Below, one piece after another: positions 35,474 through 47,490 of a stretch of 64,000 nt of DNA. Numbering within the stretch: the stretch's first letter is position 1; each line of letters begins with the position of its first letter. The notes under the pieces were generated by a model. It was not told where the DNA came from, made no database searches, and saw only the letters and a program-made list of their open reading frames with translations. The translations under genes and the position numbers were made by a program. Source of the stretch: Saccharothrix sp. S26 (GTDB lineage Bacteria; Actinomycetota; Actinomycetes; Mycobacteriales; Pseudonocardiaceae); NCBI RefSeq assembly GCF_021390395.1, contig NZ_JAJUWT010000014.1, positions 62,001 to 126,000 on the forward strand. The letters are read 5' to 3'.

Positions 35474-36208
35474 TCAGCCCGCCTTCGCCTCGGGCAGCCG
35501 ATCGACGGCTTTCGCCTGCTTCTCCTCGCCCTTGGGCGCTTCCTTGGCCTTGGCCGCGTACACGTCGACGTACTCCTGGCCGGACAGCTCCATCAGGGCG
35601 TACATGATCTCGTCGGTGATCGACCGCAGCACGAACCGGTCGCCGGACAGGCCCTCGTAGCGGGAGAAGTCCAGCGGCTTGCCGATCTTGATCCGGATCG
35701 GGTACGGCTTCCACATCTTCGAGCCGATGGGGTTGGCCTTGTCGGTGCCGAACATCGCCACCGGGATCACCGGCGCGCCGGACTCCAGCGCGATCCACGC
35801 GACGCCGACCTTGCCCTTGTACAGGCGGCCGTCGGGCGAGCGGGTGCCCTCGGGGTAGATGCCGAGCAGCTTGCCCTCGCGCACGATCCGCACGCCGGTG
35901 TCGAGCGCGCCCTGGGCGGCCGACGCGCTGGACCGGTCGATCGGCACCTGGCCGACGCCGTAGAAGAACCAGCGCTGGAGCTTGCCCTTGAGGCCCCTGC
36001 CGGTGAAGTACTCGATCTTGGCCGGGAAGGTGACCCGGCGTGACAGCTTCAGCGGCAGGAAGAACGAGTCGGAGACCGCGAGGTGGTTGCTCGCCAGGAT
36101 CGCGCCACCCTCCTTGGGGATGTTCTCCGCGCCCTCGATGATCCGGGGTCGGAAGAACAGCTTCAGGAGCGGCCCGAGAAAGATGTGTTTCATCAACCAG
36201 TAGAGCAC
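35474..36208 (-). CDS. 1-acyl-sn-glycerol-3-phosphate acyltransferase family protein
   Basis: A 244-residue PlsC-type acyltransferase. The NHLAVSDSFFLPL block is a variant of the NHxxxxD catalytic motif with the histidine and aspartate in place; YPEGTRSPDGRLYKGKVG is the substrate-binding block. GTG 36208, with GAGGAGG eleven bases upstream, gives the usual MLYWL-type start and a membrane-associated N-terminus. It acylates lysophosphatidate or a related glycerolipid at the inner membrane. It has a paralogue at 62094-62762 with the same ELSGQEYVD ending. Equivalent to mycobacterial Rv2182c. Confidence 0.9.
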   Translation of the reverse strand: MLYWLMKHIFLGPLLKLFFRPRIIEGAENIPKEGGAILASNHLAVSDSFFLPLKLSRRVTFPAKIEYFTGRGLKGKLQRWFFYGVGQVPIDRSSASAAQGALDTGVRIVREGKLLGIYPEGTRSPDGRLYKGKVGVAWIALESGAPVIPVAMFGTDKANPIGSKMWKPYPIRIKIGKPLDFSRYEGLSGDRFVLRSITDEIMYALMELSGQEYVDVYAAKAKEAPKGEEKQAKAVDRLPEAKAG

Positions 36209-36409
36209 CGCTGGGAGCGCCTCCTCGACGTGCTTGATCCCCGACGCCAGCCTACGGAGCCGACCGCGAAAGGCACAACGAACCCGCGCGGTGAAGCGGT
36301 ACGGTCCCAAGGTCCACCGGCTGCCGTAATCCGCAACACAACGGGCTCGTGGGACGATGGACACTGGCAGAGGATTGGCCTTCACGACCCGGAGGGCTGG
36401 AGCACGCCG

Positions 36410-36892
36410 ATGAACTCCCGACGCGACTCGACCGACGGCCCGGAGGACGTCGACGCGACCTTCGCCGAGATCGTGGCGGGTCTGGAACGCGAAGGCGTGG
36501 GCAAGCAGGCCTTCCTCGACGAGGTCGAACCGGACGAGGGCGACGAGGCCGAGCCGTCCCGCCCCGTGCGGCCGGAGGGCCAGCCCGCCGTGGCCACGGC
36601 GGACGACGACCCCGACGCGTACCCGGACTCGGACTCGGACGACCCGAACGACCACTACGTGCCGCCGGACCCGCCGCCGCTGCCCGCGTTGCGGCCGGGC
36701 ACGATCGCGGCCCTGCTGCTGATCCTGCTGGGCGTGGTGCTGCTGCTGTTCCCGGGCCTGTTCGGCCTGACCGGCGCGATCGGCACCCCGCTGGCCCTGA
36801 TCGTGATGTGCTCGGGCGCGGGCTGGCTGATCCTGCGCATGCGCAACACCCCACCCCCGGACTCGGGCTGGGACGACGGCGCCGTCCTCTAA
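36410..36892 (+). CDS. Conserved small membrane protein
   Basis: A 160-residue protein from ATG 36410, with TGGAG seven bases upstream. The first 100 residues are acidic and soluble, starting with a conserved-looking helix (DVDATFAEIVAGLEREGV). Two transmembrane helices follow (about 102-121 and 125-146), ending at RMRNTPPP. No catalytic motif is seen. It is divergent from plsC and ends five bases before the first repeat element. The function is unknown. Confidence 0.78.
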   Translation: MNSRRDSTDGPEDVDATFAEIVAGLEREGVGKQAFLDEVEPDEGDEAEPSRPVRPEGQPAVATADDDPDAYPDSDSDDPNDHYVPPDPPPLPALRPGTIAALLLILLGVVLLLFPGLFGLTGAIGTPLALIVMCSGAGWLILRMRNTPPPDSGWDDGAVL

Positions 36893-36896
36893 CCCC

Positions 36897-37085
36897 TCGC
36901 GCGAGTCCTACCTCCAGAACGCGAGAGTCCTACGTTCAGAACGCGAGAGTCCTACGTTCGCGCACCCCGAGTTGAACGCTCAGAACAGTCGATCTTGTTC
37001 TGAGCGTTCAACTCGGGGGTTCTGAACGTAGGACACGCGTGACGCGAACGTAGGACTCACGCGGGGTGGAGGTAGGACTCTCGGG
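36897..37085. repeat. Composite inverted-repeat element built of 22-bp units (locus A)
   Basis: This convergent gap is filled by copies of a unit close to CGCGAGAGTCCTACGTTC. Forward copies lie near 36901 (degenerate), 36919-36940 and 36941-36962; reverse copies near 37020-37040, 37041-37062 and 37067-37085 (degenerate). The inner copies are 22 bp apart. Between the arms is a perfect 23-bp stem-loop (36965-37018). The outermost copies match each other (CCTACCTCC/GGAGGTAGG), so the whole 190 bp is one nested palindrome. The same unit recurs at 47.4 kb. Confidence 0.9.
36965..37018. terminator. Perfect 23-bp stem-loop at the centre of repeat locus A
   Basis: Bases 36965-36987 and 36996-37018 are exact reverse complements with an eight-base loop. 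The arms contain GAGTTGAACGCTCAGAAC. It should act as a bidirectional terminator for the convergent genes. A version of one arm (GAGTTCAACGCTCAG) reappears at 47476-47490. Confidence 0.8.
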
Positions 37086-38018
37086 TCAGGCGGTGGTCAG
37101 GAGGCGGATCGTGTAGCCCTCGGCGTCACGGCTCATGGTCACGTCGCGGCACGTCCGGTGCGTCAGCCACAGGCCCACGCCGGCGGTCGCGGTGCGGTCG
37201 GTCGGGACCAGGCCCGCCAGCGGTGACGTCGGCCCCTCGCCCCGATCCGTCACGGCCACCAGCACGTGCGCCGGCCCCGTCCACGCCCGCAGCCGCACGG
37301 GCGGCCGGCCGTGCGAGTGGGCGTTGGTCACGGCCTCGCTCGCCGCGTACACGATGTCGTCCACCTCGTCGCGCCCCAACCGCGCCCCGCCGCACGCCGC
37401 CGTCACCGCGCGCCGGGCCTGCGCCGGGGTCGGGTCGGTCAGCTCCACCACCGGCCGCCCCGCCTCGTACGCCGTCGGCCCGGAGGACGGCAACGCCCAC
37501 GACGACCGGTACCGCGCGTTCGGCAGGTGAGACCCGTCCGTCCCGGCCGTCCACGGGTGCGTCCGCACCACGTCCGCCAGCACCCGCGCCGGCGTGGTCC
37601 GCAGGTCGTACGGGCACAGACCCCACAGCGGGTACTCGTCGAACACCTCGTTCACCGCCGCCTCGTACCGCGCCCACCAGTCCCACGCCGCCCCGACGCC
37701 GGGGTGCGGCACGTCGCCCACCACCCGGATCTGCGCCGCGCCCGCGTACTCGGCGAACAGCTTCCGGTAGCCCAGGATCGCCTCGGTCGGCCGGTCGTAC
37801 TGGTCGCCGCCGGGCAGGAACACGACGCCGGACGGATCGGCCACCGCGTCGCGGATCAGCCGCTCGTTCGCGTCACGGCACGCCACCACCACCGGCTCGC
37901 ACGCCGCCACGCCCTCGTCCACGAACGGCACGACGACCGACCGGTAGTCGTCGTCGCTGCCGTAGAACGCGGTCTCGTGGAAGTACCCGACGTGCCCGTA
38001 CGCCGCACCGGTCCTCAT
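37086..38018 (-). CDS. RsbA-like anti-sigma regulator (MEDS plus HATPase domains)
   Basis: A 310-residue protein from ATG 38018. The N-terminal half (about 1-165) is a MEDS sensor domain, recognisable from HVGYFHETAFYGSDDDYRSVVVPFVDEG and LCPYDL. The C-terminal part (about 190-310) is an HATPase_c domain of the RsbW type, with EAVTNAHSHG as the N box and TAGVGLWLTHRTC as the G2 region. Such proteins bind and phosphorylate anti-anti-sigma factors in stress-response networks. No sigma factor lies nearby, so the partner is elsewhere. Confidence 0.87.
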   Translation of the reverse strand: MRTGAAYGHVGYFHETAFYGSDDDYRSVVVPFVDEGVAACEPVVVACRDANERLIRDAVADPSGVVFLPGGDQYDRPTEAILGYRKLFAEYAGAAQIRVVGDVPHPGVGAAWDWWARYEAAVNEVFDEYPLWGLCPYDLRTTPARVLADVVRTHPWTAGTDGSHLPNARYRSSWALPSSGPTAYEAGRPVVELTDPTPAQARRAVTAACGGARLGRDEVDDIVYAASEAVTNAHSHGRPPVRLRAWTGPAHVLVAVTDRGEGPTSPLAGLVPTDRTATAGVGLWLTHRTCRDVTMSRDAEGYTIRLLTTA

Positions 38019-44415: not shown

Positions 44416-47376
44416 ATGGGCGCTGGGCCGTGGTTCGGTCTTCTCGGCCCGCTTGAAGTGCGCATACAGGGTCGACCGGTGCCCGTTCGGGCGGGCAAGC
44501 ACCGGGCGTTGCTGGCCGCCCTGTCGCTGCGCGCCGGCCGGGTCGTCTCAATTGGCGAGCTGGTGTCCTTCCTGTGGGGCGGCGACCCGCCCGCGCGCAC
44601 GCGCGGCACGTTGCAGACCTACGTCATGCGGCTGCGGCAGCTGCTGGGCGACCCGTCGCTGATCCGGACCACTTCGGACGGCTACCGGTTGGTGGTGCCG
44701 CCGGAGCAGGTGGACGTGCACCGGTTCACCACCACGGCGGGCCTGGCGCGGCAGGCGGCGCAGTCCGGGCACCTGGCCGATGCCGCCGAGCTGTACGCCG
44801 AGGCGGTGGCGCTGTGGCGGGGGCCGGCGCTGTCGGACGTGCCGTCGGCGGTGTTGCGCGACGACGAGGTGCCGCGGCTGGCCGAACGGCTGCTGGTCGT
44901 GCACGAGGAGCGCAACGACGTCGAGCTGGCGCTGGGCAACCACGAGCGGCTGGTGCCGGTGCTGCGGTCGTTGACCACGGACCACCCGTTGCGGGAGCGG
45001 TTCTGGGCGCAGCTGATGGTGGCGCTGTACCGGGGCAGCAGGCAGGCGGAGGCGCTGGAGGCGTTCCGGGTGGTCGACCGGCTGCTGGGCGAGCAGCTCG
45101 GCATCGAGCCGGGCCCCGCGCTGCGCGAGCTGCACCAGGCGATCCTGGTCGGCGACCCGAGCCTGGCCGCGCCGACCGAGCGGGCCGACCCGGACGTGCC
45201 GGACCAGTTGCCGCCGGACGTGCCGGGGTTCGTGGGGCGGGCCGAGCTGGTGGACCGGATCTCCCGGCTGATCGCACCGGACGGGCCGCGCACGGCGGTG
45301 CCGATCGTGGCGCTGACCGGCGTGTCCGGGGTGGGCAAGACGGCGTTGGCGGTGCACGTGGCGCACCGGCTGCGCGACCGGTTCCCGGACGGTCGGCTGT
45401 ACGTGGACCTGCGCGGGTACGCGCCCGGCCCGGCCACCCCGGTGGTGGAGGTGCTGACCCGGTTCCTGCGGGCGCTGGGCGTGCCGCCGGAGCAGATCCC
45501 GGTGGACTCCGACGAGCAGAGCACCCTGTTCCGGTCCCTGCTGACCGGGCGGCGGATGCTGCTGGTGCTGGACAACGCCGCCGCGCCGGACCAGGTGCGC
45601 CCGCTGCTGCCCGGCGCGGCGAGCTGCCCGGTGCTGGTGACCAGCCGGGACGACCTGCGCGGGCTGATCGCCGTGGACGGCGCCCGGCGGGTCGGGCTCG
45701 ACGTGTTCGAGCCGCACGAGTCGCTGGCCCTGCTGCGCACGTCCGGCGAGGCGGCGCGGGAGCTGGCGCGGCGGTGCGGGCACCTGCCGTTGACGCTGCG
45801 CATCGCGTCGGCGTCGGTGGCGGGCGGCTCGGTGACGCGGTACCTGGAGAAGCTGGGCGACCGCCATCCGCTCGACCTGGCGCACGCCGCCCTCACGCCG
45901 GGCGCACGGCGGCTGTTCGCGCTGCTCAGCGTGGTGCCGGGGCCGGACTTCAGCACCGAGGCGGCGGCGAACGCGGCCGAGCTGACCGTGCCGGAGGCCG
46001 CCGCGCTGCTCGGGCAGCTCACCGCGGCACGGCTGGTGAGCGCCGACGGCGGCCGGTACGCGTTCCACGACGAGCTGGCGCGGTACGCCGCCGAGAGGGC
46101 GGAGGCCGGGCACGAGGACGTGGCGGCGGCGCGGGTGCGGCTGCTGGAGTTCTACGTGCGGGCCGTGGACCAGTGCGCCGAGCTGCTGTACCCGGACCTG
46201 ATGCGGTTGCCGACGCCCGCGGGCCGGGCGGTGCGGCTGCCGCGGCTGGAGACGGCGGCGCAGGCGCGGGCGTGGCTGGACGCGGAACGGGCGAACCTGA
46301 CCGCGGCGATCCGGTCGGCGGCCGAGCGGGGTCCGGCCGCGATGTCGTGGCGGCTGGCCGACGGGCTGCGCGGCTACCTGTGGATCGGCAAGCACGTCAC
46401 CGAGTGGCTGTCGACCGCGCAGTACGGGCTGGACGCCGCGCACGAGCAGCGTGACGTGGCCGGTGAGGCGGCGATGCACCAGAACCTGGGCACGTTGCAC
46501 TGGCGGCTGGGCGACTTCGACACGTCCGTGGCGCACTACACGCGTGCGGTCGAGCTGCACCGGATGCGCGGCGACCTGGCGTCGGAGGCGGAGGTGCGCG
46601 GCAACCTCGGCGTGGTGCGGCTGGAGGCGGGCGACCTCGGGTCGGCGCGTGACGACCTGGAGACGTGCCTGGCGTTGAAGCGCGAGTCCGGCGGGCCGCG
46701 CTCGGGTGAGACGGGCGTGCTGACCGGGTTGGGCGTGCTGGCGATCGAGACCGGTGAGCTGGCCGAGGCGGTGGACCTGCTGGGCGAGGCGCTGGTCATC
46801 AGCGTGGAGCACGGGTTGCGGGGCAGCGAGATCACCGCGTTGACGCTCCTGGGCGTGGCGTCGCAGCTCATGGGTGAGCCGCAGCGCGCGCTCACGCACC
46901 TGTCCGAGGCGTTGCGCCTGGCGACGGAGGCGGGGTTCCGCGAGGCCGCGGCACGGGTGCTGGAGAGCACCGCGTCGGTGCGGTTGGACCTGGGTGAGCA
47001 CGCCGAGGCACTGCGGCTGGCCGATCGGGCGTTGGCGGAGTTGAGGGAGGACGGCGATCAGCGGATCACGACGAACGTGCTGGTCGTGATGGCCTCGGCC
47101 AACTGCGGCCTCGGTTCGCCGCGCACGGCCGACGAGCAGTTCCAGCAGGCGTTGTCCAAGGCCCGGCGGATCGGCTACCTGCCCGGCGAGGCCCGTGCCC
47201 TGGTCGGTCTGGCGGGCGTGCGCCGGCTGCTGGGCCAGACCGCCGAGGCCAAGGCCCTGGCCGCCCAGGCGGTGGACCTGACGTCCCGCCTGGGCCTGCG
47301 CATCACCGAACGCCACGCCCGCGCCGAACTGGCCGCCGTCGACCTCGCCCTGGGCGACGACCCGGCCCGAACGTAG
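44416..47376 (+). CDS. AfsR-type regulator with SARP, NB-ARC and TPR domains
   Basis: A 986-residue regulator from ATG 44416, with GAGGGG ten bases upstream. Domains in order: OmpR-like winged helix (1-95, FGLLGPLEVRIQGRPVPV), BTAD (100-245, ending RVVDRLLGEQLGIEPGPALRELH), an NB-ARC/STAND ATPase (about 265-560) with Walker A LTGVSGVGKTALA and Walker B in MLLVLDNAA, and about eight TPRs (about 640-975). AfsR in Streptomyces integrates Ser/Thr kinase signals to control secondary metabolism. This gene is unlinked to a biosynthetic cluster here. Its stop codon TAG is formed by the first copy of the 22-bp repeat. Confidence 0.94.
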   Translation: MGAGPWFGLLGPLEVRIQGRPVPVRAGKHRALLAALSLRAGRVVSIGELVSFLWGGDPPARTRGTLQTYVMRLRQLLGDPSLIRTTSDGYRLVVPPEQVDVHRFTTTAGLARQAAQSGHLADAAELYAEAVALWRGPALSDVPSAVLRDDEVPRLAERLLVVHEERNDVELALGNHERLVPVLRSLTTDHPLRERFWAQLMVALYRGSRQAEALEAFRVVDRLLGEQLGIEPGPALRELHQAILVGDPSLAAPTERADPDVPDQLPPDVPGFVGRAELVDRISRLIAPDGPRTAVPIVALTGVSGVGKTALAVHVAHRLRDRFPDGRLYVDLRGYAPGPATPVVEVLTRFLRALGVPPEQIPVDSDEQSTLFRSLLTGRRMLLVLDNAAAPDQVRPLLPGAASCPVLVTSRDDLRGLIAVDGARRVGLDVFEPHESLALLRTSGEAARELARRCGHLPLTLRIASASVAGGSVTRYLEKLGDRHPLDLAHAALTPGARRLFALLSVVPGPDFSTEAAANAAELTVPEAAALLGQLTAARLVSADGGRYAFHDELARYAAERAEAGHEDVAAARVRLLEFYVRAVDQCAELLYPDLMRLPTPAGRAVRLPRLETAAQARAWLDAERANLTAAIRSAAERGPAAMSWRLADGLRGYLWIGKHVTEWLSTAQYGLDAAHEQRDVAGEAAMHQNLGTLHWRLGDFDTSVAHYTRAVELHRMRGDLASEAEVRGNLGVVRLEAGDLGSARDDLETCLALKRESGGPRSGETGVLTGLGVLAIETGELAEAVDLLGEALVISVEHGLRGSEITALTLLGVASQLMGEPQRALTHLSEALRLATEAGFREAAARVLESTASVRLDLGEHAEALRLADRALAELREDGDQRITTNVLVVMASANCGLGSPRTADEQFQQALSKARRIGYLPGEARALVGLAGVRRLLGQTAEAKALAAQAVDLTSRLGLRITERHARAELAAVDLALGDDPART

Positions 47377-47490
47377 AACTCACGTGTCCCGAACGTAGGA
47401 CTCTCGCGTTCCGAACGTAGGACTCGCGCGAGAGTCCTACGTTCAGGTCGCGAGAGTCCTACGTTCAGGACCGGTGAGTTCAACGCTCAG
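47367..47490. repeat. Array of 22-bp repeat units between convergent genes (locus B)
   Basis: Five copies of the unit seen at 36.9 kb: three in reverse orientation (47367-47386 degenerate, 47387-47408, 47409-47430) and two forward (47427-47448, 47449-47470), each pair 22 bp apart. CGAACGTAG in the first copy includes the AfsR-type stop codon. The array ends with GAGTTCAACGCTCAG (47476-47490), which resembles one arm of the locus A central hairpin and includes the PimB stop codon. The unit orientation is outward here and inward at locus A. Folded, the array forms a long double hairpin. Confidence 0.9.

Follow-up and report, generated by a model that had tools for sequence, protein, structure and literature searches.

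What kind of element fills the gap between two convergent genes with little other than short repeated units, and which of the two genes would it serve? The gap in question (element A, 36897-37085) lies in the window, i.e. the whole stretch of 64,000 nucleotides of Saccharothrix sp. S26 DNA analysed here, and consists almost entirely of 22-bp units, four of them facing another four. The original prediction saw six copies filling the gap, three forward and three reverse, the inner ones phased at 22 bp, arranged around a perfect 23-bp hairpin, and took the entire 190 bp as one nested inverted repeat. The six copies are indeed there, in 22-bp phase within each arm (Table 1). However, the gap holds eight, since the arms of the hairpin contain the seventh and the eighth in phase: in both 23-bp arms the core GAGTTGAACGCTC stands exactly 22 bp past the third unit. 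Thus the hairpin does exist, perfectly paired around an 8-nt loop, but it is not separate from the units, as its arms carry the terminal, or cap, units of two arrays. The inverted repeat is real as well (88-nt arms, 81% complementary), but it is one arrangement of a simpler object. The basic object is a directional array, and a nested palindrome arises because convergent genes often bear one array each, face to face. Element A would then be two facing copies of a directional 3'-end element, each belonging to the gene that precedes it.

Table 1. Features of element A and position of element B (numbering of the window)
Feature	Positions	Strand	Remarks
Left convergent gene	36410..36892	+	start approximate
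TAA stop of left gene	36890..36892	+	followed by CCCC and the array, whose first core is 10 nt away
Forward unit 1 (opens the array; ACCTCC variant)	36899..36915	+	core 36903-36915
Forward unit 2	36921..36937	+	exact consensus
Forward unit 3	36943..36959	+	exact consensus
Forward cap unit core GAGTTGAACGCTC	36969..36981	+	22 bp behind unit 3; part of hairpin arm 36965-36987
Spacer between the two caps	36988..36995	.	8 nt; hairpin loop
Reverse cap unit core	37002..37014	-	part of hairpin arm 36996-37018
Reverse unit 3	37024..37040	-	
Reverse unit 2	37046..37062	-	
Reverse unit 1 (first unit of right gene, ACCTCC variant)	37068..37084	-	core 5 nt behind TGA stop
Right convergent gene	37086..38018	-	MEDS sensory domain and HATPase_c_2 ATPase
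Element B, inside-out	47369..47488	.	three units in reverse, followed by two forward ones with a forward cap

No U-tract was seen in element A on inspection by eye. In the Rfam scan of 36400-37600 nothing reached its gathering score, the sole match being mir-969 with 28 bits against a cut-off of 61. The longer frame of the left gene (36083-36889) has no match in Pfam, and a search of plasmid records gave no match.

Abundance and location of the repeat

In the window, 11 matches to a 15-mer pattern with up to three mismatches were found against 1.18 expected, a count that none of 100 shuffles reached; five of the 11 belong to the second element, B (47369-47466). The unit is not unique to these two places. 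Over the complete genome of 9,076,694 bases (54 contigs), a 17-mer pattern with up to two mismatches matches 446 times, 243 forward and 203 reverse, and the reversed pattern used as a control gives no match in the same genome.

A check of whether copies are confined to convergent gaps gave a negative answer. Among 25 clusters in 864 kb of the own genome, 16 lie in convergent gaps, 6 in co-directional gaps and 1 in a divergent gap, while the 2 intragenic ones are single matches with three mismatches. Given that gaps of at least 30 bp in the same 864 kb number 86 convergent, 256 co-directional and 142 divergent, clusters occupy 16 of the 86 convergent gaps versus 7 of the 398 others (p 2e-8; the gene calls come from our own codon-model script and not from a published tool). 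When gaps are scanned for repeats of any period, 22 stands out, together with 44, and period 22 is present in 19 of 83 convergent, 7 of 240 co-directional and 1 of 140 divergent gaps.

Structure of the arrays

The arrays follow a grammar: a stop codon, TGA or TAA, usually CCC, a first 22-bp unit, further units in phase and a cap unit. The cap is of a distinct type, GA[AG]TT.[AG]AC, which forms the last unit in 52 of the 61 arrays of three or more units, none of the 61 first units and 6 of the 123 middle ones; these counts combine pieces of the own genome, G003 (syntenic stretch), G022 and G018, so that orthologues among them are not independent. Altogether 40 elements comprise 13 facing pairs (><), 5 back-to-back pairs (<>), 3 facing pairs with a further < array and 19 lone arrays. 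Because the scripts applied differing unit thresholds, 'lone' arrays can have weak partners; C3:313263, for instance, is lone in the hairpin analysis and paired in the cluster survey.

The phase is near exact. Of the 101 intervals measured inside chains of the own genome, 100 are 22 bp long, as are all 30 in G003. In G251, a member of another genus, 54 intervals are 21 bp and 13 are 42 bp, with one each at 43 and 23. If all neighbouring cores 14-31 bp apart are counted, 104 of 118 in the own genome lie at 22 bp and 154 of 166 in G251 at 21 bp. Adjacent units in these three genomes share an identity of 0.69-0.76 (0.69 in G251), and a spacing that precise despite such divergence of the units suggests that spacing matters, although duplication by itself would initially yield equal spacing too. 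Arrays reach 6 units in the own stretches and 13 uninterrupted units in G251. By eye, gaps L086-L090 of G251 are packed with long rows of units in 21-bp phase.

The core of the unit is a near-dyad, GARY-N5-RYTC, whose centre is not dyad symmetric: A8 and C9 are conserved without matching partners. In G251 either half-site can take the form GAAC or GAGT, and the four possible combinations, each of which is found, account for 71 of 119 units. A hairpin within each unit was considered as a rule and rejected, because the half-site forms in G251 combine freely.

Association with stop codons

Arrays mostly begin right behind stop codons. Array starts facing a sense stop number 53, of which 44 are located at -2 to 17 nt and 37 at 4-11 nt from it; the remaining nine are farther off, and 10 of 63 outer starts face something else. 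For comparison, of 111 strand readings of array-free convergent gaps, 21 have their strongest hairpin beginning at 4-11 nt, and the median is 32. The choice of stop codon is biased as well. The 44 anchored arrays follow TGA in 34 cases, TAA in 10 and TAG in none, versus 535 TGA, 38 TAA and 143 TAG among 716 other stops. CCC stands directly behind 31 of 40 array stops (four of the 44 starts overlap the stop and leave no intervening bases) versus 60 of the 716 others. These counts include orthologous rows, which are not independent, the own genome contributing 23 of the 44 starts; taken alone, it has TAG at 0 of 23, and CCC at 17 of the 19 starts where any bases separate the stop from the core. 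Of 11 lone arrays in co-directional gaps, 7 are in sense orientation.

Hairpins and strand composition

Among convergent gaps 30-500 bp long, 65 of the 96 that lack an array contain a strong hairpin (8 of 81 when such gaps are shuffled), whereas 4 of the 20 with an array contain one outside it (p 1e-4). This difference is partly built in because array gaps have little space for a second hairpin: the median length of their non-array sequence is 13 to 17 bases, and that of array-free gaps is 73.5. Array gaps are mostly devoid of any other terminator hairpin. One array of the own genome, C3:329491, is preceded by a conventional GC-rich hairpin directly behind the gene.

The folding of the arrays themselves depends on their arrangement. 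Elements A and B fold strongly on both strands (z of -15.8 and -12.7), and together with one more facing pair they span -12.7 to -15.8. Of seven lone arrays, four lie at z -0.2 to -2.9 on either strand and three at -3.2 or lower, one of the latter with a conventional hairpin alongside. Since lone arrays are common (19 of the 40 elements), fold weakly in these four of seven cases and have no strong hairpin outside the array in six of seven convergent gaps, a long hairpin cannot be the general basis of whatever the arrays do.

The match of the copies across the centre of element A, outer with outer, which the original prediction noted, is present but not specific to the element. Same-rank identity of facing arms is 0.787, and it is 0.770 with the right arm drawn from a different element. 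The former identity is reached in 60 of 1000 permutations of 29 >< elements, or 125 of 1000 without caps, and for seven <> elements 928 of 1000 permutations reach the observed value. Pooling all elements gives 0 of 1000, a figure set aside because it combines two architectures. Facing units of the same rank are therefore not significantly more alike, and selection on arm pairing leaves no clear sign; we rejected it on these figures. Nor did the permutation test detect significant arm-to-arm covariation beyond shared unit types.

The sense strand of the arrays has more C than G in 8 of 9 sets (0.34/0.26 in the own genome versus 0.37/0.35 behind array-free stops) and folds less well than the antisense strand in 7 of 9. 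Its content of YC dinucleotides in the own genome, 14.9 per 78 nt, compares with about 14 predicted from composition.

Conservation among relatives

Sequence matches to element A occur in 16 of the 25 genomes of the genus, in two of them weakly. Array-positive members are, for example, G000-G003, G005, G015, G018 and G022, and array-negative ones G004, G006, G009, G011, G012, G014, G016, G017 and G023. The units are also present in the genomes of S. luteola NEAU-S10 and S. deserti BMP B8144. The gap itself was sought in these 25 genomes and, where both its flanks were readable, contains unit variants of their own in G022, G005, G003, G002, G008, G013 and G020; G001 and G015 match across it as judged from sequence matches, G018 retains two reverse units and G007 has none. 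The right flank was unmatched in G006, G010, G017, G019 and G023, and the comparison left out G009, G011, G016, G024, G021, G014, G004 and G012. G023 (L108), a relative without the array, has a different tandem repeat of about 15-17 bp, by eye, behind the stop of the left gene.

Along about 150 kb of synteny the own genome has 8 array gaps. Of these, 7 contain units in G022 as well as in G003; in G018, 6 could be read and 4 contain units. Among gaps of this stretch with both flanks found, no relative has an array where the own genome lacks one. The eighth array is confined to the own genome relative to G022, G003 and G018; it was the sole place for a test of an empty site or a target duplication, and the gaps of the relatives did not align cleanly there. 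Between relatives the unit sequences, the unit number and even the orientation change, and the position of the gap is kept. All this looks like inheritance in place with a fast turnover of units, not like recent transposition. The Y1_Tnp domain (RAYT, PF01797) is absent from the own genome (G000) and from 20 of the 25 genus genomes, being present in the other 5.

A pattern of two units is present in 9 of 397 genomes drawn from across the order, which represent 5 of 85 genera, each of them in the family of the window, and among 396 genomes drawn from across the phylum it finds the own genome only; these counts are lower bounds, because the pattern misses other unit types such as G003-like and g8 arrays. 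Among the places listed, the spacing is 22 bp in g1 and g53 and 21 bp in g38, g48 and g10. Pieces of seven genomes of g8, g10, g38, g48 and g53 contain 40 array starts, 19 of them at -2 to 20 nt from a sense stop, and G232, G078, G110 and G033 share an identical junction, TGA-CCCGC-GAGT; neither of the two array starts in G173 is anchored to a stop. Scanned with the alternative period, pieces from other genera yielded 0 to 2 arrays per genome. These regions were chosen for holding matches, and the rates in them are not genome-wide. The IMG/VR contigs L031, L032 and L033 contain one exact 17-mer of the unit apiece.

Possible function

We infer that transcription stops at the arrays, and give a probability of about 0.5 to their being the termination or 3'-end signal of the preceding gene. 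The reasons are the location of arrays at 3' ends, their anchoring to stop codons and the replacement of ordinary hairpins, and the same reasons make the terminator the best supported of the three readings offered originally (a bidirectional terminator, a protein-binding array and a MITE-like mobile repeat). Positions retained in relatives despite changing unit sequences, the strong folding of A and B and the excess of C over G on the sense strand also count in favour of termination. As to the means, where arrays face each other the transcript of either gene could fold into a long hairpin. At a lone array the stop would need Rho, acting on ribosome-free sense RNA in which C exceeds G, or else a local hairpin or a DNA-bound protein. 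Several observations speak against termination: some lone arrays fold weakly, some are antisense, some array starts lie away from sense stops, facing arms show no significant covariation, inside-out elements touch the stops with their caps, and YC content is close to what composition gives. Moreover, neutral repeats tolerated at 3' ends would show part of the same pattern.

Could the DNA itself be what is read? A putative protein might bind as dimers to GARY-N5-RYTC on one face of the helix every two turns (21 or 22 bp), making the array a roadblock, a boundary or a supercoil site behind genes. We regard this as possible, though doubtful. Near-exact spacing of divergent units fits it well, as do the two half-site forms that G251 combines freely, the existence of lone arrays with no strong hairpin alongside and the occurrence of both orientations. 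However, equal spacing would follow from unit duplication anyway, the middle of the core lacks dyad symmetry, and DNA binding alone would leave the anchoring to stop codons unexplained. A broader speculation, which we hold just as tentatively, is that the arrays may represent a new bacterial 3'-end element, stop-anchored, directional, helically phased and capped, where a predicted protein would halt RNA polymerase, or couple the stop of translation to the stop of transcription, with no terminator hairpin involved; the sequence of the sites and their phase, 21 or 22 bp, would have diverged between genera along with the protein that reads them.

The termination reading also has to be set against explanations that give the arrays no role. 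A repeat of REP or MITE kind, moved by a transposase and retained mainly at gene 3' ends, where it is harmless, would account for the high copy number and the patchy presence across genera and within the genus; its location would resemble that of described REPs (PMC3733652), and caps that extend into the last codons of opposing genes would suit it too. We nevertheless find it unlikely. Arrays are shared by position with G022 and G003, and largely with G018, relatives show none of their own where both flanks were found, and the one array confined to the own genome yielded no clean empty site; a recently mobile MITE, as proposed originally, is thus poorly supported. In addition, most genomes of the genus, including the own one, lack the RAYT domain, unit number, orientation and termini vary, and random insertion would not be expected to respect stop codons. 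Even less probable, in our opinion, are neutral tandem repeats produced by slippage at 3' ends and simply tolerated. The fast turnover of unit number and orientation between relatives is what slippage would give, and the other tandem repeat in G023 after the same left gene is in line with it. But a cap fixed at one end of the array, a stop junction common to genomes of several genera, the bias among stop codons and the scarcity of off-phase spacing are all difficult to obtain in that way.

Relation to known elements

The original prediction was aware of no described element of this sequence. Our literature searches, at the level of listings and several with loose terms, found no description of the repeat; among the matches listed, papers in which parts of the unit sequence are printed deal, by title, with unrelated organisms or subjects. 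The known kind to which the arrays belong is that of high-copy intergenic repeats at gene 3' ends, such as REP and BIME. REPs are described as numerous short intergenic repeats that favour positions downstream of genes, where the neighbours are convergent or unidirectional, and that vary in orientation and clustering (PMC3733652); in these respects the arrays are like them. The arrays are set apart by being tandem, directional and capped, with a phase of 21 or 22 bp and an anchor at the stop codon, in a genome that lacks RAYT. The conserved GTAG or CGTC tag of REPs, on a palindromic unit of 20-40 bp, does not apply either: no unit by itself forms a complete palindrome, and the GTAG letters on its reverse strand vary among relatives (by eye). 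A MITE would be expected to have constant termini, a target-site duplication and empty sites in relatives; the varying termini and unit numbers of the arrays speak against that kind.

With intrinsic bidirectional terminators the arrays share the inverted repeat between convergent genes, the strong folding of both strands (A and B) and the place that ordinary hairpins otherwise occupy; they differ in the repeated units, the many one-sided arrays and the missing U-tract of element A (by eye). Sal boxes, bound by TTF-I, and the sites of Reb1 are directional sites for terminator proteins, about 20 bp long and located behind genes, some in arrays. They resemble our arrays in size, direction and location, but they are eukaryotic. 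Rho utilisation sites are not known to contain a repeat unit or a cap, or to keep a fixed phase. Ribosome-free RNA right after a stop, rich in C over G and less structured on the sense strand, would resemble such a site; however, the arrays do have unit, cap and phase, and their YC content is not above composition.

To our knowledge, it is not settled how transcripts of high-GC actinobacteria are ended in the absence of U-tract terminators. The present element is high in copy number, has a readable grammar and stands behind stop codons in gaps that lack other hairpins; it makes termination, Rho dependence and a possible terminator protein testable in ordinary soil strains, and a termination role would also account for a class of conspicuous repeats in such genomes.

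Repeat sequence within gene ends

Among caps that face an opposing gene, 12 of 25 contain its stop codon, at -9 to -2 nt, and by eye cap sequence can form the last codons of that gene. In element B, as in other inside-out elements, the caps and not the first units touch the gene stops. Its outermost units contain the stops of both convergent genes: the TAG (47374-47376, plus strand) of the gene at 44479-47376, a BTAD / NB-ARC / TPR regulator, and the TGA (47487-47489, minus strand) of a glycosyltransferase gene, which ends within the opposite cap. Both gene ends are thus partly written by the repeat.
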